Shown piece by piece: positions 32,053 to 42,028 of a stretch of DNA of 64,000 nt (positions within the stretch are counted from its first letter, which is position 1; every line of letters begins with the position of its first letter). A program made the position numbers and the translations under genes. The DNA is from Halopseudomonas phragmitis (GTDB taxonomy: Bacteria; Pseudomonadota; Gammaproteobacteria; Pseudomonadales; Pseudomonadaceae), in assembly GCF_002056295.1 (NCBI RefSeq), contig NZ_CP020100.1:310001-374000 (forward strand). Direction: 5' to 3'. The notes beneath the pieces are model-generated. The model did no database searches and had not been told where the DNA came from. It worked only from the letters and a program-made list of their open reading frames with translations.

Positions 32053-33075
32053 TCAGGCCGCTCGCGGCGTGGTCCGACACCACTGGGCCAGGGTTGCAAC
32101 CCACTGCGGGTGGTCGTTCAGACAGGGGACCAGCACCAGCTCCTGGCCGCCCGCTTCAATAAACTGTTCGCGGGCCCGGTCGCCAATCTCCTCCAGCGTC
32201 TCGATGCAGTCGGCCACGAACGCCGGACACAGCACCAGCAGGCGCTTGACCCCCTGTGCCGCCAACTCGTCGATCCGGGTTTCGGTATAGGGCTCGATCC
32301 ACTTGTCCCGTCCCAGCCGCGACTGGAAAGCCTGCGACCACTGCTCCGGCGCCAGCCCCAGGCGCTGGGCAAACTGCTTGCTCACCGCTGTGCACTGGGC
32401 CCGGTAGCAGGTTGCATGGGCCGGTGACGGACGCTCGCAACAGTCGGGAGAGGCCAGGCAATGTGAGCCGGTCGGGTCGGCCTTCTTCAAATGCCGCTCC
32501 GGCAAGCCATGGTAACTCAGCAGCACATGGTCGAATGGCTGCTCGAAGTAGGGTTTGGCACTGGCCACCAGCGCCTCCAGATAGTCGGACCGGTCATAAA
32601 AGGCCGGCACCACCGTCAGAGTCAACGGCAATTGATGCTTGGCAATGACCCGCTGCGCCTCTCGAACTGAAGTGGTAATGGTGCTGTCGGCATGCTGAGG
32701 GTATTGCGGCATGAACAATACCTCGCGCACCCCAGGCTGCTGCGCCAGTTTCAGCAGGCCCTGCTCAATCGAAGGCTGGCCGTAACGCATGGCCAGTTCG
32801 ACCGGCATATCCAGTTGCGCCTGCAGCGCCTGCTGCACCCGGCGACTGATCACCACCAGGGGCGAGCCTTCATCCCACCAGATCGAAGCATAGGCCTCGG
32901 CCGAGGCCTTGGGTCGGCGCAGCAGAATCATGCTGACCAGCAGGCGGCGCAACGGCCAGGGCAGGTCAACTACCAGAGGGTCCATCAGAAATTGATTGAG
33001 ATAGCGCCGCACATCGGCCACCTCGGTACTGGCAGGCGAGCCGAGATTGACCAGCAAGACCCCACGATCAGACAT
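32053..33075 (-). CDS. hemH: ferrochelatase
   Basis: A 340-residue enzyme that inserts ferrous iron into protoporphyrin IX, the last step of haem synthesis. Family motifs are [10 protein letters not shown] at the N-terminus, [24 protein letters not shown]-like, [17 protein letters not shown] (catalytic His) and [16 protein letters not shown]. Cysteines in [12 protein letters not shown] and ATCYRAQC hint at an iron-sulfur or zinc site. Lies downstream of the TIGR01777 epimerase (18 bases apart). In P. putida I recall hemH being part of the light-induced LitR regulon, consistent with the dyad upstream of this pair. Confidence 0.97.
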
Positions 33076-33093: not shown

Positions 33094-33993
33094 TCAAGAT
33101 GAATGCAAAATATCCGTCAGCGCCTCGTCGAGGTGCTGATAACGAAAGTCAAAACCCTGCTCCTGTGCCCGCTTGGGCAAAGCATTCTGCCCAGTCAGCA
33201 GCAACCGTGACATTTCCCCCAACCCCAGCTTCAATACCGGAGCCGGCAGCGGCATGAAGGCCGGGCGCTTCAGGGCCCGGCCCAGGCTGCGGGCAAACTC
33301 ACGATTGGTCACCGGGTGCGGCGCACTGCCATTGAAAACCCCACGGCACTCGGGATTGCTCAGCAGCCATACGATCAGTTCGATCAGATCAGCCCGGTGA
33401 ACCCAGGGAATATACTGCCTGCCGGAACCCAGCGCGCCACCCAGCCCCAGCTTGAACGGCAGCAACAGACGCTTGAGAAAACCACCGTCGGCCGCTAGCA
33501 CCAGGCCGGTGCGCAGCAGGCAAACCCGCACGCCATAGGCCGAGGCCCGCCGCGCCGCCGACTCCCAGGCATCACAAAGCATATGGGTGTATTCAGGATG
33601 AGCAGGGCTGTCTTCCGTCAACGGCTGGTCACCACCATCGCCATACCAGCCGACTGCCGAGCCACTGATTAACACCTCGGGCTTTTGCGCCCGCGCGCCC
33701 ATCCAGGCCACCAACTGTTCAGTCAGGGTCACTCGGCTGGACCAGAGTTCGGCCTTGCGCTTGGCGGTCCAGGGCCGGTCAGCGATCGGCGCCCCGGCCA
33801 GATTGACGACCGCATCGAGATGTTCGCCATCCAGTTGCGCCAGGCTCGATACCCCACGAACCTGAGTCCCACACAGCGTGCCCACCTGATCCGCCCGACG
33901 ACTCCAGACACTCACTTGGTGACCATCCGCCAACAGTCGCTGACAGAGCGCTCGTCCGATCAAGCCGGTGCCACCGGTAATCATTATGTGCAT
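33094..33993 (-). CDS. TIGR01777 family NAD-dependent epimerase-like protein (YfcH)
   Basis: A 299-residue extended-SDR-like protein. The Rossmann motif MITGGTGLIGRALCQRL begins at residue 4, VVNLAGAPIADRPWTAKRKAELWSSR is the TIGR01777 signature, and a C-terminal DUF1731 domain (ALKRPAFMPLPAPVLKLGLGE) ends the protein. Biochemical function is unknown. ATG 33993 is chosen since the family begins just before the ITGGTG loop. It is divergent from the renalase gene and probably heads a hemH-containing unit controlled by the dyad at 34087. Confidence 0.92.
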   Translation of the reverse strand: MHIMITGGTGLIGRALCQRLLADGHQVSVWSRRADQVGTLCGTQVRGVSSLAQLDGEHLDAVVNLAGAPIADRPWTAKRKAELWSSRVTLTEQLVAWMGARAQKPEVLISGSAVGWYGDGGDQPLTEDSPAHPEYTHMLCDAWESAARRASAYGVRVCLLRTGLVLAADGGFLKRLLLPFKLGLGGALGSGRQYIPWVHRADLIELIVWLLSNPECRGVFNGSAPHPVTNREFARSLGRALKRPAFMPLPAPVLKLGLGEMSRLLLTGQNALPKRAQEQGFDFRYQHLDEALTDILHSS

Positions 33994-34086
33994 AGCCCAC
34001 CCCCATCCTCGGCGTGACAGTTGGTTCATCAAGCTTAACAGCTACGACTGCATTCGGCTTGCAGGCTGGTTCCAGATCGGGGATGC

Positions 34087-34110
34087 TATACAGACCGCGT
34101 GCGATGTACA
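34087..34110. promoter_or_regulatory. LitR/PplR-type (MerR photosensor) operator, perfect consensus
   Basis: TATACA-N12-TGTACA matches every position of the operator I recall for class II LitR of P. putida, T(G/A)TACA-N12-TGTA(C/T)A. It lies in the 197-base gap between the divergent epimerase-hemH and renalase genes, 94 bases from the former ATG and 81 from the latter, so one site could serve both promoters. Binding is inferred. Confidence 0.65.
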
Positions 34111-34190
34111 AGTTCTGTCCAACAGATAGGCACCATAGCGAACCTCTATCAGTCATCCGCCCCGATCACTTCCTCGCCTGCACGGATACC

Positions 34191-35177
34191 ATGGCCATGA
34201 CCCACAACCACAATATTGCCATCATTGGCGCCGGCCTGGCTGGCATCAGCGCCGCACAGGCCCTGACCCAGTCCGGTCACCGCGTCACCCTGTATGACAA
34301 GAGCCGCGGCAGCGGTGGGCGCATGTGCAGCAAACGCACGACTGAAGGCGATTTCGACATAGGCGCACAGTACTTCACCGCGCGCGACAGCCAATTCCGT
34401 CAGGAGGTCAAACGTTGGCTGGATCAGGGCTGGGTCACCGAATGGAACCCGCGTCTATACCGCTACGACGACAACGGCCTGACACCGTCGGAGGACGATC
34501 AGCAGCGTTTCGTCGGCACGCCACGCATGACCGCCTGGTCCCGCCACCTGCTCGAAGGCCTGGAACTGGTTGGTGAAACACGCATCGTCCGGCTGCACCC
34601 CGAGGCCGACCGCCAGTGGCTGCTGGTCGACGAGCATGACCGCCATTACGGCCCCTACGACCGGGTCGTGATCGCCACCCCGGCCCCGCAGGCCGTGCCG
34701 TTATTGGAAGCCGCGCCACAACTGGCGCAGACTGCCGCACAGGTTCAGATGGAAGCTGGCTGGGCCGTGGCCATGGCCTTTGAACAGCCGCTCACAACCA
34801 ACGTCGATGCCTGTTTTGTACGCACCGGCCCACTCGACTGGGTCGCCCGCAACAGCAGCAAACCCGGCCGGGCCGGGCTCGACACCTGGGTAGTGCAGTC
34901 CACCGCGAGCTGGGCCGAAGGTCACCTGGACCTCAAGCCCGAAGCAGTCACCCAGCAACTTGGCCAGGCTCTGGCTGAGGTTCTGGGCCTGCACCTGCCG
35001 CCCCCGGTGCAAAGCCACGCCCATCGCTGGCTGTATGCCCGCCCCAATGGCGAATACAACTGGGGAGCACTGGCAGCCCCGGAACTGGGCGTCTATGTCT
35101 GTGGCGACTGGTGCCTGGGCGGACGGCTGGAAAATGCCTGGCTGAGCGGACTACAGGCGGCTCGCACCCTGACCTGA
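34191..35177 (+). CDS. bacterial renalase-type FAD oxidoreductase
   Basis: A 328-residue flavoprotein. The dinucleotide motif IAIIGAGLAGISAAQAL is followed by YDKSRGSGGRMCSKR and DIGAQYFTARD; the C-terminus VYVCGDWCLGGRLENAWLSG closes the FAD site. It is very similar in length and motifs to the Pseudomonas renalase that oxidises the inhibitory 2- and 6-dihydro isomers of NAD(P)H back to NAD(P)+. Start ATG 34191 (or 34197) lacks a strong Shine-Dalgarno sequence. Transcribed toward the photolyase operon and 89 bases from it. Neighbourhood and operator suggest light control. Confidence 0.88.
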   Translation: MAMTHNHNIAIIGAGLAGISAAQALTQSGHRVTLYDKSRGSGGRMCSKRTTEGDFDIGAQYFTARDSQFRQEVKRWLDQGWVTEWNPRLYRYDDNGLTPSEDDQQRFVGTPRMTAWSRHLLEGLELVGETRIVRLHPEADRQWLLVDEHDRHYGPYDRVVIATPAPQAVPLLEAAPQLAQTAAQVQMEAGWAVAMAFEQPLTTNVDACFVRTGPLDWVARNSSKPGRAGLDTWVVQSTASWAEGHLDLKPEAVTQQLGQALAEVLGLHLPPPVQSHAHRWLYARPNGEYNWGALAAPELGVYVCGDWCLGGRLENAWLSGLQAARTLT

Positions 35178-35202: not shown

Positions 35203-35234
35203 ATGACAGAGTGATGCACACTAAAACTTATACA
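35203..35234 (+). promoter_or_regulatory. candidate promoter of the photolyase operon with MerR-like long spacer
   Basis: ATGACA (35203-35208, five of six to TTGACA) and TATACA (35229-35234) are separated by 20 bases, the long spacing typical of MerR-regulated promoters. The -10 coincides with the left half of the operator. A palindromic CTTGTACAAG at 35193-35202 lies just upstream. Confidence 0.4.
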
Positions 35235-35257
35235 AACTAAGCAATACGTATAAGTTT
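35224..35257. promoter_or_regulatory. LitR/PplR-like operator inside a perfect 10-bp inverted repeat
   Basis: AAACTTATAC at 35224-35233 is repeated in perfect inverse as GTATAAGTTT at 35248-35257, with a 14-base spacer. Inside it TATACA-N12-CGTATA matches 11 of 12 fixed positions of the recalled LitR-type operator. The right arm ends nine bases before the ATG of the DUF523 gene and nearly touches its GAGG ribosome site, so bound protein would block transcription. Confidence 0.65.
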
Positions 35258-35266
35258 GAGGTTCCC

Positions 35267-36226
35267 ATGCGCACTGTCAGTCGCACCATCCCCATAGGCA
35301 TCAGCGCCTGCCTGGTTGGGCAACCGGTTCGCTTCAACGGTGGCCACAAGCATTCGTCGCTGTGTACCGCTCAACTGGGGCCAGCCTTCACGCTGGTCCC
35401 GTTCTGCCCAGAGGTTGCGGTCGGGCTCGATACTCCGCGCCAACCCATCCGCCTGGTCGGCGAGCCTCAGGCGCCGAGAGTACTTGGCAGCCAGGATCCT
35501 ACGCTTGACCTGACCGAACCCCTACAGCGCTATGGTGCCCAGGTAGCCGCCAACCATCCGGAACTGTGTGGTTTCATCCTGATGCAGAAATCTCCCAGTT
35601 GCGGCCTGCAACGGGTCAAGCTCTATCAGGCCGATGGCCAGTTGCAGCCCAAAACCAGCAGCGGCGCCTTTGCCAGCGCGCTACGCCAGGCCAACCCCTG
35701 GCTGCCGATCGAAGAAGAAGGGCGACTGCACGATCCGGTACTGCGTGAAAATTTCATCACCCGGGTTGAAGTCTATGCCCAATGGCGCCAGCAACTCGAG
35801 CCGCAGCTCAGCGCCGCCGCTCTGCTGGCCTTTCATGCCCGGCACAAATATCTGCTGCTGGCCCATCACCCCGAAAGCTACCGCCGCCTTGGTCAACGTC
35901 TGGCCAACCTGCGCCGGGCCGACCTGGGCGCGACAGCACAGGCCTATTTTCAGGAGTTGATGGAAGCACTCAGCCGCCCGGCCAGTCGCCAGCGCCACAG
36001 CAACGCCCTGGAGCATATCGCCGGGCATTTCAAGCGCGCCCTGAATCCGGCCGAGAAACATGAACTGGCGGAGCTGATCGGCCATTACCGACAGGGCCTG
36101 GTTCCGCTGGTGGTGCCAATCACCCTGCTCAAACACCACCTGCTCAAGCACCCGGACAGCTACCTGCAACAACAAAGCTATCTGCAGCCACACCCACCCG
36201 AACTCAGCCTGCGCAACGCGATTTAA
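35267..36226 (+). CDS. DUF523 and DUF1722 domain protein (YbgA/TudS-like fusion)
   Basis: 319 residues with two domains. DUF523 (about 8-150) keeps three cysteines, Cys15 (ISACLVG), Cys47 (PFCPE) and Cys112 (SPSCG), which in the related TudS thiouracil desulfidase bind an iron-sulfur cluster. DUF1722 (about 185-305) is as in E. coli YbgA, which also sits next to phrB. Desulfidase activity is possible but untested. First gene of a seven-gene operon; GAGG five bases before ATG 35267. Ten bases separate it from phrB, where PAO1 and P. putida carry a merR gene. Confidence 0.9.
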   Translation: MRTVSRTIPIGISACLVGQPVRFNGGHKHSSLCTAQLGPAFTLVPFCPEVAVGLDTPRQPIRLVGEPQAPRVLGSQDPTLDLTEPLQRYGAQVAANHPELCGFILMQKSPSCGLQRVKLYQADGQLQPKTSSGAFASALRQANPWLPIEEEGRLHDPVLRENFITRVEVYAQWRQQLEPQLSAAALLAFHARHKYLLLAHHPESYRRLGQRLANLRRADLGATAQAYFQELMEALSRPASRQRHSNALEHIAGHFKRALNPAEKHELAELIGHYRQGLVPLVVPITLLKHHLLKHPDSYLQQQSYLQPHPPELSLRNAI

Positions 36227-36236
36227 GCCGGAGACG

Positions 36237-37667
36237 ATGATGAACGCCATTCAGCTGTGCTGGCTGCGCAACGACCTGCGCTGCACCGATAACCAGGCAC
36301 TCTGGCACGCCAGCCAGCAAGGCCCGGTGGTGGCGGTCTGGCTGATCAGCGGCGACACCTGGAAAGCCCATGACGACGCACCGGTCAAGATCGACTTCTG
36401 GTTGCGCAACCTCAGGGAGCTGGGCCTGAGTCTGGCCACCCTGAATATCCCGCTGCGCATCATTGATGTCGGCACCTGGAGCCATTGCGCCGAAGCGCTG
36501 CTTGAGCTGGCCAGCCAGCTCAATGCCCAAGGCCTGTTCTTCAATGACGAATACGGAATCCACGAACAGGCCCGCGATGCCGAAGTCGAACGCAAGTTTC
36601 AGCACGCAGGGCTAGATTGCCGGCGCTTCACCGACCAGTTGCTGTTTGCTCCGACCAGCCTGAAGACCCAGGCCGGCACCCCGTTCAAGGTCTTCAGTCA
36701 GTTTCGCCGCCAGGCCTATGCCCAACTGCACAGCCACCTTCCAGCCTGCCTGCCGGCGCCGCAGCGCCAGAGTGCGCTGCCGCTGACCAGCGACACGCCA
36801 CCAGCCCAACTGGATGACTTCCCTGCGGCCAGCCCCTTGCAGCAACAGCTCTGGCCAGCCGGCGAGGCAGCGGCCCAGCAGCGGCTTGAGCAGTTCTGTC
36901 ATGACGCGTTGATGGACTATCACGCAACCCGCGACCGGCCTGACCTGCAAGGCACCAGCCAGCTGTCACCCTATCTGGTCAGCGGCATATTATCCGTGCG
37001 CCAATGCCTGCACGCAGCCTTGCGGGTCAATCAGGGCGAATTCGCCAGCGGCTCGCCCGGTGCCGTGGCCTGGATCAACGAACTGCTGTGGCGCGAGTTC
37101 TATAAATACATCCTGGTTAACTTCCCTCGGGTATCGCGCCACCGGGCCTTTCGCCCGGCCACCGAAGCCATCCCCTGGCGCAATGATCCGGCCGCCCTGG
37201 AGGCCTGGCAACAAGGCCGCACCGGCTTCCCGATAATCGATGCAGCCATGCGTCAACTGGCGACCACCGGCTGGATGCACAACCGGCTACGGATGCTCTG
37301 CGCCATGTTTCTGAGCAAGAACCTGCTGCTTGACTGGCGCAGCGGTGAGCGCTGGTTCATGCGTCAGTTGATCGACGGTGATCTGGCAGCCAACAACGGC
37401 GGCTGGCAGTGGAGCGCCTCCACCGGTACTGATGCCGCGCCCTACTTCCGGCTATTCAACCCGATCAGCCAGGCCCGCAAGTTCGATCCCCAGGGAGATT
37501 TCATCCGCCAGTGGGTCAGCGAGCTGGCCAACACCCCAACCGTCAGCATCCATGCGCCGCAGCCCGACAGCCTGTTGAAAGACAACGACTACCCGGCGCC
37601 GATCATTGATCTGGCCAGCAGCCGTGAACGCGCGCTGACCGCCTTCCGGGAGCTCGCTACCCCATGA
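36237..37667 (+). CDS. phrB: deoxyribodipyrimidine photo-lyase
   Basis: A 476-residue class I CPD photolyase that repairs UV dimers with blue light, using FADH- and an antenna chromophore. N-terminal Rossmann domain IQLCWLRNDLRCTDNQAL; C-terminal FAD domain with TSQLSPYLVSGILSVRQC, NELLWREFYKYI, TGWMHNRLRMLCAMFLSKNLLLDWRSGE and ASTGTDAAPYFRLFNPISQARKFDPQG. Two adjacent ATGs occur; the second (36240) has better spacing (six bases) from GGAG. The 3' end overlaps the NTF2-like gene by four bases. Confidence 0.97.
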   Translation: MMNAIQLCWLRNDLRCTDNQALWHASQQGPVVAVWLISGDTWKAHDDAPVKIDFWLRNLRELGLSLATLNIPLRIIDVGTWSHCAEALLELASQLNAQGLFFNDEYGIHEQARDAEVERKFQHAGLDCRRFTDQLLFAPTSLKTQAGTPFKVFSQFRRQAYAQLHSHLPACLPAPQRQSALPLTSDTPPAQLDDFPAASPLQQQLWPAGEAAAQQRLEQFCHDALMDYHATRDRPDLQGTSQLSPYLVSGILSVRQCLHAALRVNQGEFASGSPGAVAWINELLWREFYKYILVNFPRVSRHRAFRPATEAIPWRNDPAALEAWQQGRTGFPIIDAAMRQLATTGWMHNRLRMLCAMFLSKNLLLDWRSGERWFMRQLIDGDLAANNGGWQWSASTGTDAAPYFRLFNPISQARKFDPQGDFIRQWVSELANTPTVSIHAPQPDSLLKDNDYPAPIIDLASSRERALTAFRELATP

Positions 37668-38098
37668 ACACGCACTCGGCCTTCGCCCAGCAGTTTGCCG
37701 ATACCTTCGCGCGCCTGGATCGCGACAACCTGCATTTGCTTGAACAGATCTACAGCGAGGATCTGCACTTCAGCGACCCCCTGCACGAGTTGCACGGGCT
37801 CAGCGCCATGCGCCACTACTGCGAAGCGCTGTATGCCAATGTCAGCCTGATCAGCTTCGAGTTTCAGCAATGCCATGAACTGACCCAGGATCAGGCCGTG
37901 CTGCGCTGGATCATGACCTACCAGCACCCGCGCCTGGCCGGTGGCCGACCGATCCAGGTACCCGGTTGCAGCTTTATCGAATACCACGACCTGCGGGTCC
38001 ACCGACATGCCGACTATTACGACGCCGGGGCCCTGCTGTACGAGCACGTGCCGCTGCTTGGGCGGGTTATCCGTTATTTGAAAGCGAGACTGATATGA
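37664..38098 (+). CDS. NTF2-like (SnoaL-type) protein
   Basis: A 144-residue single-domain protein of the nuclear-transport-factor-2 fold. The typical N-terminal helix (FADTFARLDRDNLHLLEQIYSEDLHFSDPLHELHG) and the C-terminal strand ending in DYYDAGALLYEHVPLLGRVIRYLK match the small SnoaL-like proteins found beside photolyase and Cfa genes in other proteobacteria. Catalytic role unknown. ATG overlaps the phrB stop. Such loci often have an SDR gene next to this one; it is not present here. Confidence 0.85.
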   Translation: MNTHSAFAQQFADTFARLDRDNLHLLEQIYSEDLHFSDPLHELHGLSAMRHYCEALYANVSLISFEFQQCHELTQDQAVLRWIMTYQHPRLAGGRPIQVPGCSFIEYHDLRVHRHADYYDAGALLYEHVPLLGRVIRYLKARLI

Positions 38099-38120
38099 CT
38101 CAGCAACGGGAGAAAGTCTG

Positions 38121-39368
38121 ATGCGTATCGCCATCGTGGGCAGTGGTATTGCCGGGCTGGCTTGCGCTCATCTGCTGGCACGCCGGCATCAGGTCCAGGT
38201 TTTTGAGGCCGCTGAACGACTGGGCGGACACACGCATACCGTCACGATTGAACTGGACGGGCAACGCTACGCAGTCGATACCGGCTTCATTGTGTTCAAT
38301 GACTGGACCTACCCAAACTTTATCCGCTTGCTGGAGCAGCTCGGCGTTGCCTCACAACCAACCGAGATGAGCTTCTCGGTACAGGACCCACTCAGCAGTC
38401 TGGAATACAACGGGCACAATCTCAATACGCTGTTCGCTCAGCGGCGCAACCTGCTATCACCCGGTTTTATCGGCATGCTGCGCGACATTCTGCGCTTCAA
38501 TCGCCAGGCTCCATACGATCTCGAACAAGGGCTGCTAAGTACGACCACGACCCTCGGTGACTACCTGCGGGCAGGCAATTACGGCCAGCGTTTCATCGAT
38601 CATTACATCGTGCCGATGGGCGCGGCCATCTGGTCGATGCCACTGGCCAGCATGCTGGAGTTTCCGCTGTACCTGTTCGTTCGGTTCTTTCGCAACCACG
38701 GCCTGCTGTCGGTCAACCAACGCCCGCAGTGGCGGGTGATCAAAGGTGGCTCAAGCGCCTACCTACCGGCCCTGACCAAGCCCTTTCACGACACTATTCA
38801 ACTCAACTGCCCGGTGCGAACAATCCGCCGGGACGCCAAGGGTGTAACCCTGATCAGCGTGCGTGGCGAGGAGCGCTTCGACAAGGTGGTGCTGGCCTGC
38901 CACAGCGATCAGGCCCTGGCCCTGCTGGAGCAACCCAGTCAGGCTGAACAGAGCATTCTCGGCGCCATCCCCTACGCCGACAACGACGTGGTGCTGCATA
39001 CCGACACCCGGCTGCTGCCGCGCAATCGGCGCGCCTGGGCCAGCTGGAACTATCGCTTGAGCGGCAACCCCGCGCAGCCGGCAGCAGTAACCTACGATAT
39101 GAACCGACTGCAAGGCATCCAGGCCAGTCACACCTTCTGCGTCAGTCTGAACCAGACCGTGGATATCGCCGAGGACAAGATCCTCGGCCGCTTCCGCTAT
39201 GCCCACCCACAGTTCAGCCTGGCCAGTCAGGCCGCCCAAGCCCGCTGGCAGGAACTACTCGGCGTCAACCATACCTATTTCTGCGGCGCCTACTGGGCCA
39301 ACGGGTTCCATGAGGACGCGGTGGTCAGCGCACTGCGGGTCGCCGCTGATTTCGGGGAGCAGCTCTGA
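38121..39368 (+). CDS. FAD-dependent amine-oxidase-like protein of the Cfa cluster
   Basis: A 415-residue flavoprotein with IAIVGSGIAGLACAHLLARRH at the start, GGHTHTV, a central FDKVVLACHSDQALALL and the C-terminal CGAYWANGFHEDAVVSAL flavin segment. It belongs to the branch of the amine-oxidase/desaturase superfamily always found beside DUF1365 and Cfa-like methyltransferases. In Rhodobacter a protein of this type (UfaD, as I recall) desaturates methylated fatty acids in furan-fatty-acid synthesis. That assignment here is inference. GGGAG lies eight bases upstream; the stop shares one base with the next ATG. Confidence 0.85.
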   Translation: MRIAIVGSGIAGLACAHLLARRHQVQVFEAAERLGGHTHTVTIELDGQRYAVDTGFIVFNDWTYPNFIRLLEQLGVASQPTEMSFSVQDPLSSLEYNGHNLNTLFAQRRNLLSPGFIGMLRDILRFNRQAPYDLEQGLLSTTTTLGDYLRAGNYGQRFIDHYIVPMGAAIWSMPLASMLEFPLYLFVRFFRNHGLLSVNQRPQWRVIKGGSSAYLPALTKPFHDTIQLNCPVRTIRRDAKGVTLISVRGEERFDKVVLACHSDQALALLEQPSQAEQSILGAIPYADNDVVLHTDTRLLPRNRRAWASWNYRLSGNPAQPAAVTYDMNRLQGIQASHTFCVSLNQTVDIAEDKILGRFRYAHPQFSLASQAAQARWQELLGVNHTYFCGAYWANGFHEDAVVSALRVAADFGEQL

Positions 39369-40165
39369 TGCCCCTGGCCAGCGCTCTATACCGTGGCCGG
39401 GTGTGGCACAAGCGCCGCAGCCCCCGGGTTCACGCCTTCAGCTACCGGCTCAGCCTGCTGTGGCTTGATCTGGATGAGCAGGCCCAGGTGTTCGGCCTCA
39501 GCACCCTGTGGTCCGGCCACTGGTATTCACCCATGCGCTTTCGCGAATCAGACTACCTAAGCCGTCACCGCCATGCCCATGAGTCGCTGGCCTGCTGCGC
39601 CCGCCGGTTGGCCCGCGAGCACCTGGATCTGCCGCTCGATGGCCCGGTCAGACTGCTGACTCAGGTGCGCAGCTTTGGCTTATTGTTCAATCCGGTGTCG
39701 TTCTTTTACTGCTACCACGCCAACGGTCAGCTCGGTGCGATCATTGCAGAGGTCAGCAACACCCCCTGGAATGAACGCTTCTGCTACCTGCTACCCGCCC
39801 AGCCGGACTCAGCGGCTCAGAGCTTCAGCCTGGACAAGGCCTTCCATGTCTCACCGTTCATGCCGTTAAGCCAGACCTACCGGATGCGTTTCAGCACGCC
39901 AGACCGGCAGGCACGGGTGCTCATTCAGAGTCAGCAAAACGGCCAACCAGTGTTCGACGCTGCATTGCAACTGCAACGCCTGCCATTGAGCCCCGCCGTA
40001 CTACGTCGTGAAGCCCTGAGCTTCCCGTTCATGGTCATCAAAACCGTCACTGGTATCTACTGGCAAGCCTTGCGCCTGTGGCTCAAACGCACTCCTGTTT
40101 TCTCTCACCATCCTGCCGCCAACAACGCCCTGGCCGCTCGCCAGCCGCCCAACGACATCTCTTGA
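39368..40165 (+). CDS. DUF1365 family protein
   Basis: A 265-residue conserved protein of unknown biochemistry. The DUF1365 hallmark runs from SALYRGRVWHKRRSPRVHAF to VRSFGLLFNPVSFFYCYH (about residues 98-115), then EVSNTPWNERFCYLL and HVSPFMPLSQTYRMRF. Always next to the flavoprotein and Cfa-type methyltransferase in photo-oxidative stress clusters, so a role in fatty-acid modification is inferred. Coupled to the preceding gene by a one-base overlap; 14 bases before cfa. Confidence 0.85.
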   Translation: MPLASALYRGRVWHKRRSPRVHAFSYRLSLLWLDLDEQAQVFGLSTLWSGHWYSPMRFRESDYLSRHRHAHESLACCARRLAREHLDLPLDGPVRLLTQVRSFGLLFNPVSFFYCYHANGQLGAIIAEVSNTPWNERFCYLLPAQPDSAAQSFSLDKAFHVSPFMPLSQTYRMRFSTPDRQARVLIQSQQNGQPVFDAALQLQRLPLSPAVLRREALSFPFMVIKTVTGIYWQALRLWLKRTPVFSHHPAANNALAARQPPNDIS

Positions 40166-40179
40166 GGGAGCACACGCCC

Positions 40180-41487
40180 ATGAGCCAAGTCAATTCCAGC
40201 AGCACTAGCCGGCCCGGCAGCGACCGGCCGCAACTTCAGCAACGAACGACTGAGCAGTCCCGTTGGCTGATCAGCCTGTGCCGCCGACTGGTCCTGCGCC
40301 AGCTCGCCACCCTGCGCTATGGCTGCATCAATATCCATGAAGCCGGCCAGGTCAGCCGTTTTGGTCAACCAGCGGACGATGGCCTGCAGGCCGAGATTCA
40401 TGTGCACGACCCGGCGGCCTACTCGATGATTACCTGCAATGGCAGCGTTGGCGCCGGCGAATCCTACATCCACGGATTCTGGAGTAGCCCGGACCTGACT
40501 GCGGTTACCCGCATCTTTGTCCGCAACCTGGAGGTGCTCGATGGCCTTGAGCGTGGTCTGGCGCGCCTGGGACTGCCAGCGCTGAAATGGCTGCACTGGC
40601 TCAACCGCAATACTCTGGCCGGTTCCAGGCGCAACATTCGCGCCCATTACGATCTGGGCAACGAGTTGTTCGAGAACTTCCTGGACCCGACCATGATGTA
40701 CTCGGCGGCGGTTTTCCCCAGCGGCTGCGATAACCTTGAACAGGCCCAGCGCCATAAGCTCAAGCGTGTCTGCCGCAAGCTCGAACTGTCTCCCCAGGAC
40801 CATCTGCTGGAGATCGGCAGCGGCTGGGGCAGCATGGCGATTTACGCAGCCCAGCATTATGGCTGCCGGGTAACCACCACGACCCTGTCCCAGGAACAAT
40901 ATCGTTACGCCCAGGCCCGGATTCGCGAGCTCGGGCTGGAGCAGCGGATAACCCTGCTGTTGCAGGACTACCGCGAGTTGACCGGGCAGTATGACAAACT
41001 GGTCTCGATCGAGATGATCGAAGCCGTCGGTCATGACTACTTTCATACTTACTTCAAGACCTGCTCGAACCTGCTCAAGCCGCACGGGCTGATGCTGCTG
41101 CAGGCGATCACCATCCGCGATCAGCGCTATCAACAGGCCCGTCGCAGCGTCGACTTCATCCAGCGCTACATATTCCCCGGCGGCTCGCTGCCGTCGGTCA
41201 GCCTGATCGCCGAACTAACCCGCGAGCACTCCGATCTGGCCATGCTGCATCTGGAAGATATCGGCGGGCACTACGCCAGAACCCTGCGTCATTGGCAGCA
41301 CAATCTGAAAACCGCCCACGGCCATCTGCAACAACTGGGGTATGATGATGCTTTCTTCAGGCTCTGGGAGTTCTATCTGTGCTATTGCGAGGGTGGCTTC
41401 ATCGAACGGTCGATTGGCGCAGCACAAATACTGCTAAGCAAACCTCAGGCACGTCCGACACTGGCGTTCACAACCCAGGGGTTCTGA
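40180..41487 (+). CDS. cfa: cyclopropane-fatty-acid synthase-like SAM methyltransferase
   Basis: A 435-residue enzyme of the Cfa/MMA-synthase family that transfers a methyl from S-adenosylmethionine to membrane unsaturated fatty acyl chains. It has an N-terminal lipid-binding domain (about 30-130), RAHYDLGNELFENFLDPTMMYSAA, SAM motif LEIGSGWGS (about 210-217) and VSIEMIEAVGHDYF; the C-terminal CYC (401-403) carries the catalytic-type cysteine. It differs from housekeeping Cfa by its cluster context and could be a UfaM-type methylase. Start ATG 40180, preceded by GAGGGAG. Confidence 0.9.
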   Translation: MSQVNSSSTSRPGSDRPQLQQRTTEQSRWLISLCRRLVLRQLATLRYGCINIHEAGQVSRFGQPADDGLQAEIHVHDPAAYSMITCNGSVGAGESYIHGFWSSPDLTAVTRIFVRNLEVLDGLERGLARLGLPALKWLHWLNRNTLAGSRRNIRAHYDLGNELFENFLDPTMMYSAAVFPSGCDNLEQAQRHKLKRVCRKLELSPQDHLLEIGSGWGSMAIYAAQHYGCRVTTTTLSQEQYRYAQARIRELGLEQRITLLLQDYRELTGQYDKLVSIEMIEAVGHDYFHTYFKTCSNLLKPHGLMLLQAITIRDQRYQQARRSVDFIQRYIFPGGSLPSVSLIAELTREHSDLAMLHLEDIGGHYARTLRHWQHNLKTAHGHLQQLGYDDAFFRLWEFYLCYCEGGFIERSIGAAQILLSKPQARPTLAFTTQGF

Positions 41488-41488
41488 C

Positions 41489-42028
41489 ATGGCGGTAAAA
41501 ACCGGCGCGAACGCCGTTCTGTTCGTGCTCGGCGCCCTGACCTGCCTGCTCGCCAGCGCCAATCCCTGGTGGCTGCTGGCCCCCGTCGCCATCCTGCTGG
41601 TCCACTTCAGTTGGATCAGTTCCTGGGCACGCGAAGGCAAGCTGGTTGTCAGTGTACTGCTGGCAGGCTCGGCACTGGACTCCTTTCTGTTACAGCTGGG
41701 AGTGTTCGAATTTCCCGGTGACGCCACCCTGATCCCGGCCTGGCTGGCGCTGCTCTGGGCCCTGCTCGGCACCACTCTGAATCACTGTCTGGCCTGGACC
41801 GCCAAACGCTGGTGGCTGGCCAGTTTGGTCGGGCTGGTGATCGGCCCCTGCGCCTACCTGCTCGCTCAGGCCTGGGCCGATCTCAGCCTGGTCCACGGGC
41901 CACAGACCAGCCTGCTGATCCTGATCCCGATCTGGGCCGCGGTACTGCCCCTGCTGCAGGGGTTTGCCAACCTATATCAGGAGCAGTACCGGCTTCGCCA
42001 ACTGGGCCGCCGGCCACCCAAAAACTGA
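41489..42028 (+). CDS. DUF2878 membrane protein
   Basis: A 179-residue inner-membrane protein with five or six hydrophobic helices and no long loops. Short polar motifs (PAWLALLWALLGTTLNHCLAW, then KRWWLASLVGLVIGPCAY) match DUF2878, a family tied to Cfa/DUF1365 clusters. Function unknown; it could anchor or feed the modification enzymes at the membrane. One base after cfa; last gene of the operon. No clear terminator in the 26 bases before the converging pagL. Confidence 0.82.
   Translation: MAVKTGANAVLFVLGALTCLLASANPWWLLAPVAILLVHFSWISSWAREGKLVVSVLLAGSALDSFLLQLGVFEFPGDATLIPAWLALLWALLGTTLNHCLAWTAKRWWLASLVGLVIGPCAYLLAQAWADLSLVHGPQTSLLILIPIWAAVLPLLQGFANLYQEQYRLRQLGRRPPKN

Follow-up and report, generated by a model that had tools for sequence, protein, structure and literature searches.

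Renalase as a probable further target of the LOV-LitR blue-light switch in Pseudomonadaceae

The renalase gene is probably a conserved further target of the LOV-LitR blue-light switch, with the element at positions 34087-34110 of the window as its class II LitR-like operator. The window is the whole 64,000-nucleotide stretch of DNA analyzed, corresponding to positions 310001-374000 of the genome contig. This proposal builds on the observation of a conserved site that occurs once in the genome, on where that site lies with respect to renalase, and on the observed regulator and photoreceptor genes; it suggests that related bacteria make renalase in response to light. In the dark, the LitR-like MerR protein of this genome would bind 34087-34110 and hold down transcription of renalase, the gene presumed to be controlled and to be responsive to light. 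Under blue light, LitR would be bound and taken off the DNA by the short LOV protein encoded next to it, and renalase would then be made together with the RudS and photolyase genes, which have an operator of their own. The scheme of dark repression and LOV anti-repression is taken from Pseudomonas mendocina, in which, according to PMC9758184, PmlR2 acts as a repressor in darkness and is removed from the DNA by illuminated PmSB-LOV.

The operator, its neighbours and its rarity

The letters at 34087-34110 are TATACA-GACCGCGTGCGA-TGTACA, a dyad to which no strand was assigned and which agrees at all fixed positions with the class II LitR (PplR/PmlR) consensus T(G/A)TACA-N12-TGTA(C/T)A. A preliminary description of this DNA had reported the same dyad and had given the consensus; the dyad was read directly in the window letters, and the consensus was found printed in this form for P. 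putida PplR1 in PMC9758184, where the PplR1-3 regulon of P. putida KT2440 is cited as its source. The site lies in a gap of about 200 bp between two divergent genes, and its centre (34098.5) is within 10 bp of the gap midpoint, as had been claimed. Downstream on the plus strand is the proposed target, the renalase gene (34191..35177; ATG at 34191 or 34197), whose product has a predicted renalase activity and matched the solved bacterial renalase PDB 4zcc at full length (371 bits; residues 8-326 of the 327). A search of genome contigs placed one close relative only, Pseudomonas sp. WN033, next to this renalase, with 97% identity over the protein. The divergent neighbour on the minus strand is an epimerase-like oxidoreductase of the TIGR01777 family (33094..33993; ATG at 33993; NCBIfam TIGR01777, 345 bits, cut-off 207), followed after 18 bp by the ferrochelatase gene hemH (32053..33075, minus strand; PF00762, 320 bits). 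All three gene identities given in the preliminary description were thus upheld.

Exact matches to the consensus were rare. The window contained one (expected number, 0.00; 0 of 100 shuffles contained one), and the single-contig genome of 4,035,153 bases contained the same one and no other, with none for a control pattern read backward. When one mismatch was allowed, 10 places were detected in the genome versus 2 for the control. Across 148 sampled genomes of the family there were 314 exact sites versus 34 for the control, and at least one exact site was present in 119 of the 148. As the control gave 34 matches across 148 genomes, chance matches amount to about 0.2 per genome.

One of the one-mismatch places is a second operator, TATACA-N12-CGTATA (35229..35252, no strand assigned), which ends 14 bp before the RudS gene. 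No clear further light gene was detected among the other eight such places of the genome, and five of these eight overlap an ORF of 120 or more amino acids in a mechanically produced ORF list. Four genomes of the genus share the element TATACATGCCAGCATGCATGTATA, exactly or nearly so, with an unchanged spacer (L005:1501-1524; G011:C24:57170, G032:C1:3128823 and G031:C62:1341); this element lies across ORFs and probably has no relation to LitR. A TGTC.A-like word was also seen 5 bp past the operator (window positions 34111-34121), which is possibly a third half-site; it was enriched in three genera (g1, the genus of the window, g32 and g30; g numbers are our labels for genera) but not in g29.

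Conservation of the site in Pseudomonadaceae

Conservation was assessed in 140 renalase loci, 30 of them from the genus and 110 from other members of the sampled family. The family sample held 129 genomes with a renalase match at an E value of 1e-40, 17 from the genus and 112 from outside it; 110 of the latter were used, G138 and G151 being left out as genomes with matches at a contig edge. A strong renalase match was found in 32 genomes of the genus, of which all but G003 and G009 served as loci. A divergent epimerase gene was present within 600 bp of renalase in 118 of the 140 loci, and these 118 formed the set of orthologous gaps. Two of the 22 loci outside this set, L162 and L208, carry an exact upstream site.

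The site was found exactly in 68 of the 118 orthologous gaps and with at most one mismatch in 79, counts that do not represent independent events, the compared genomes being related. It was present in 8 of the 13 genera with an epimerase/renalase pair. Exact sites were detected in 20 of 27 gaps of g1, 17 of 17 of g29, 18 of 18 of g32, 6 of 8 of g30 and in the single gaps of g23 and g40 (1/1 each). Genus g35 had 5 exact sites in 18 gaps, rising to 15 with one mismatch, and g31 had no exact site in 2 gaps and one site with one mismatch. No upstream site was found in the 26 gaps of the five remaining genera (g25, 0/2; g26, 0/13; g34, 0/1; g38, 0/4; g39, 0/6). Altering the spacer in the same 118 gaps gave no exact matches with spacers of 6 to 10 and 14 to 18 bp, 3 with a spacer of 11 and 7 with a spacer of 13; with one mismatch, spacer 10 was found in 8 gaps and spacer 13 in 17. 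Four scrambled half-site pairs gave no exact match and at most one match with one mismatch. A 12-bp spacer is preferred in the orthologous gaps.

Sites were also examined in relation to the light genes. A site was present in 76 of 102 gaps with RudS, phrB or LitR in the fetched flank and in 3 of 16 gaps with none of them (Fisher's P = 3e-5, uncorrected for relatedness); the three were L156 and L160, both with the site 39 bp before renalase, and L185. The presence of LitR does not always imply a renalase site: such a rule was rejected, as it fails in g26, in which all 13 loci had the usual order of epimerase, renalase and RudS together with a LitR-like protein, but in which an operator was found before renalase in 0 of 13 and before RudS in 4 of 13. 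The renalase site was likewise absent from four loci of the window's genus with an adjacent RudS gene (L042, L043, L045 and L046).

The second operator recurs in these genomes. An exact site was present in the renalase/RudS gap of 69 of 94 orthologous loci, with two or more sites in 47, and 33 of the 58 exact sites detected in total in 37 genomes of the genus were inside the two gaps flanking renalase. The first gene past this operator encodes RudS, a TudS desulfidase fused to DUF1722 (35267..36226, plus strand; PF04463 and PF08349), and the second is the DNA photolyase gene phrB (36237..37667, plus strand; NF007955, 523 bits, cut-off 506). RudS was so named in PMC11417400, which places an operon containing PhrB, LitR and RudS under this kind of light control. 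Genes with Pfam matches follow on the plus strand at 37664..42028 in the order SnoaL-like, FAD oxidoreductase, DUF1365, fatty-acid synthase-like CMAS (ATG at 40180) and DUF2878; they are presumed to belong to the light operon, on account of their spacing and by comparison with the P. mendocina cluster.

A chance match, or a site of another regulator that reads TGTAC-type words, is a very improbable origin for the dyad. Such an origin would fit the five genera without a site, and other inverted repeats containing TGTAC exist in the genome, such as AAGTTGTAC-N14-GTACAACTT at L007:1497-1528; however, it is at odds with the low chance rate per genome, with a position and spacer conserved in 8 of 13 genera and with the partner site before the photolyase operon, a known type of target. 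Chance was rejected on the grounds of genome uniqueness, the family control counts and the spacer controls. The identification of 34087-34110 as a LitR-type operator is well supported because the site is unique in the genome, is kept in orthologous gaps with its 12-bp spacer and is accompanied by a LitR-like/LOV pair. As a separate observation, the L007 element is a long inverted repeat located between two divergent ORFs and could serve another regulator.

Distances, promoters and the gene controlled

The preliminary description had proposed that one site could put hemH, the TIGR01777 gene and renalase under light control. Distances from the site were measured to the position aligned with query residue 1 (window position 34194) instead of to annotated start codons; distances to the epimerase are about 3 bp short, the protein having been taken one codon late. 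Outside g1, the renalase start position followed the end of 57 of 59 sites at 31 to 45 bp, and only L151 (181 bp) and L185 (187 bp) deviated, whereas the epimerase start was 44 to 337 bp from the site. Renalase is the likely target of the operator because, outside g1, the distance to renalase is near constant and that to the epimerase drifts. Further support comes from loci in which the neighbours are separated: L156 and L160 retain the site with fetched flanks that revealed no light-operon gene, and L208 retains it with no epimerase detected. On balance this separation evidence favours renalase; it is less telling against hemH, which in L208 faces renalase directly with an exact site between the two genes, 41 bp before renalase. 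The part of the earlier proposal that concerned renalase is therefore supported, and the epimerase and hemH were rejected as main targets on their drifting distance to the site. In L208 (positions 93-2769) a LOV gene, hemH and renalase are neighbours, the LOV gene being located beyond hemH.

A bidirectional operator that also controls the epimerase-hemH unit, making haem synthesis light regulated too, is a rather unlikely alternative for which there are several indications. One is the nearly central position of the site in the divergent gap, and inside g1 neither distance is fixed (renalase, 8 to 90 bp; epimerase, 96 to 209 bp). As read by eye on the minus strand, TGTACA and TAGCAT, 16 bp apart, could form a promoter inside the operator. 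The placement of hemH opposite renalase in L208 is compatible with dual control, as is L185, where only 44 bp separate the site from the epimerase and 187 bp from renalase. Distances of 180 to 187 bp to renalase were seen in two g23 genomes; L162, with its site 180 bp before renalase, is a locus in which the epimerase was not detected. Against this alternative are the contrasting ranges of the two distances outside the genus. Cells require HemH in darkness as well, and full repression of hemH in the dark is hence unlikely. Moreover, the main text of PMC9758184 makes no mention of hemH.

Candidate promoter elements for renalase were also noted. In the window, TTGCAG (34059-34064) and GATGCT (34082-34087), separated by 17 bp, may form a renalase promoter on the plus strand (34059..34087) that abuts the operator, and a similar arrangement (TTG..., 17 bp, (G/A)ATGCT abutting the operator) was observed in 14 of the 20 site-bearing loci of g1. 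In other genera the second half-site would itself be the -35 element of the renalase promoter, as a -10-like hexamer with the key A and T occurred 16 bp past the operator in 78% of loci in g32, 93% in g35, 82% in g29 and 100% in g30, compared to 5% in g1. These hexamers match TATAAT weakly (mean of 2.7 to 2.9 of 6 positions), and the offset of 16 was picked from 18 offsets, of which 10 (g30) and 11 (g32) score in single genera and 16 alone scores in four. As a sigma-70 consensus scan of 33950-34260 detected no promoters, the case for these elements, which were chosen after looking, is one of conservation.

Regulator, photoreceptor and possible role of renalase

The window starts 32 kb after the gene for a LitR-like MerR regulator, which occupies contig positions 277057-278004, approximately. 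The genome gave six MerR_1 matches, and the LitR-like protein itself was matched at one place only. This protein has an N-terminal MerR-type HTH (PF13411, 63.5 bits, cut-off 21.6). As regards the B12-binding_2 (four-helix) domain of class II LitR proteins, Pfam at an E value of 0.001 gave only MerR models for it. The AdoB12-dependent (class I) LitR/CarH proteins share this DNA-binding domain, and the CarH model and CarH structures reach past the HTH of the LitR-like protein, to residues 215 and 224, respectively, the structures aligning from residue 19; the model score, 78 of 400 bits, is nevertheless below the cut-off. The cobalamin-binding motif is [DE].H..G. A search for this motif in the LitR-like protein found none, and B12 sensing is therefore unlikely, in contrast to the class I proteins. 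A short LOV gene encoding a protein of 151 amino acids adjoins litR in convergent orientation. The best solved relatives of the LOV protein are named sensory box proteins (248 bits), several of which we take to be Pseudomonas short LOV proteins. On the other side, folM adjoins litR in divergent orientation (306 bits, cut-off 249).

These features resemble those of the P. mendocina PmlR2/PmSB-LOV switch, which, according to PMC9758184, uses the same operator consensus and has pmlR2, pmSB-LOV and folM together; the likeness of the present LitR to PmlR and PplR is judged from features and gene context. The light-inducible cluster of P. mendocina (PME6650-PME6610) contains genes for a photolyase, an FAD oxidoreductase and the furan fatty-acid synthase UfaM, and target operons with photolyase, FAD oxidoreductase and fatty-acid synthase genes are common to both organisms. 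Unlike in P. mendocina, only one LitR-like protein was found in the present genome and none within the photolyase operon. The same source speaks of 19 light-inducible genes in P. putida, including phrB and ufaM, and its main text does not mention renalase.

Renalase as part of a light regulon had been presented in the preliminary description as a little-described link, a view that may need to be tempered. PP_0742 of P. putida is presumably renalase. PP_0738-PP_0742 were up-regulated together in co-culture and were called possibly connected to light-induced stress in PMC11014904, so that the link could be partly known. Our literature search found no paper joining renalase, Pseudomonas and light-inducible, and searches on related topics likewise returned no such link.

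Renalase is thought to repair mis-reduced NAD(P)H through its 2-/6-dihydro-NAD(P) oxidase activity and, to our knowledge, when bacteria need it is not settled. Sumi et al. (2020) reportedly studied the P. putida LitR proteins (PplR1-3), and it is possible that renalase is already described as a light target in that work. We tentatively suggest, as a reading with somewhat less than even prospects, that Pseudomonadaceae have in renalase an enzyme dedicated to photoprotection. Under blue or near-UV light, the levels of mis-reduced (2-/6-dihydro) nicotinamide cofactors would rise, and to clear these cofactors LOV-LitR would induce renalase along with DNA photolyase and the removal of tRNA 4-thiouridine. 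If so, bacterial renalase would gain a defined physiological setting, and a light regulon known for DNA repair and for tRNA and lipid changes would be extended to cofactor repair. A conserved light operator at the renalase promoter makes the need for renalase in bacteria testable.

The litR/folM gap contains a further inverted repeat, TTGTAC-N7-GTACAA (L013:1835-1853; contig positions 278072-278090), the layout of which is unlike that of the N12 operator and which is possibly a LitR site of its own.
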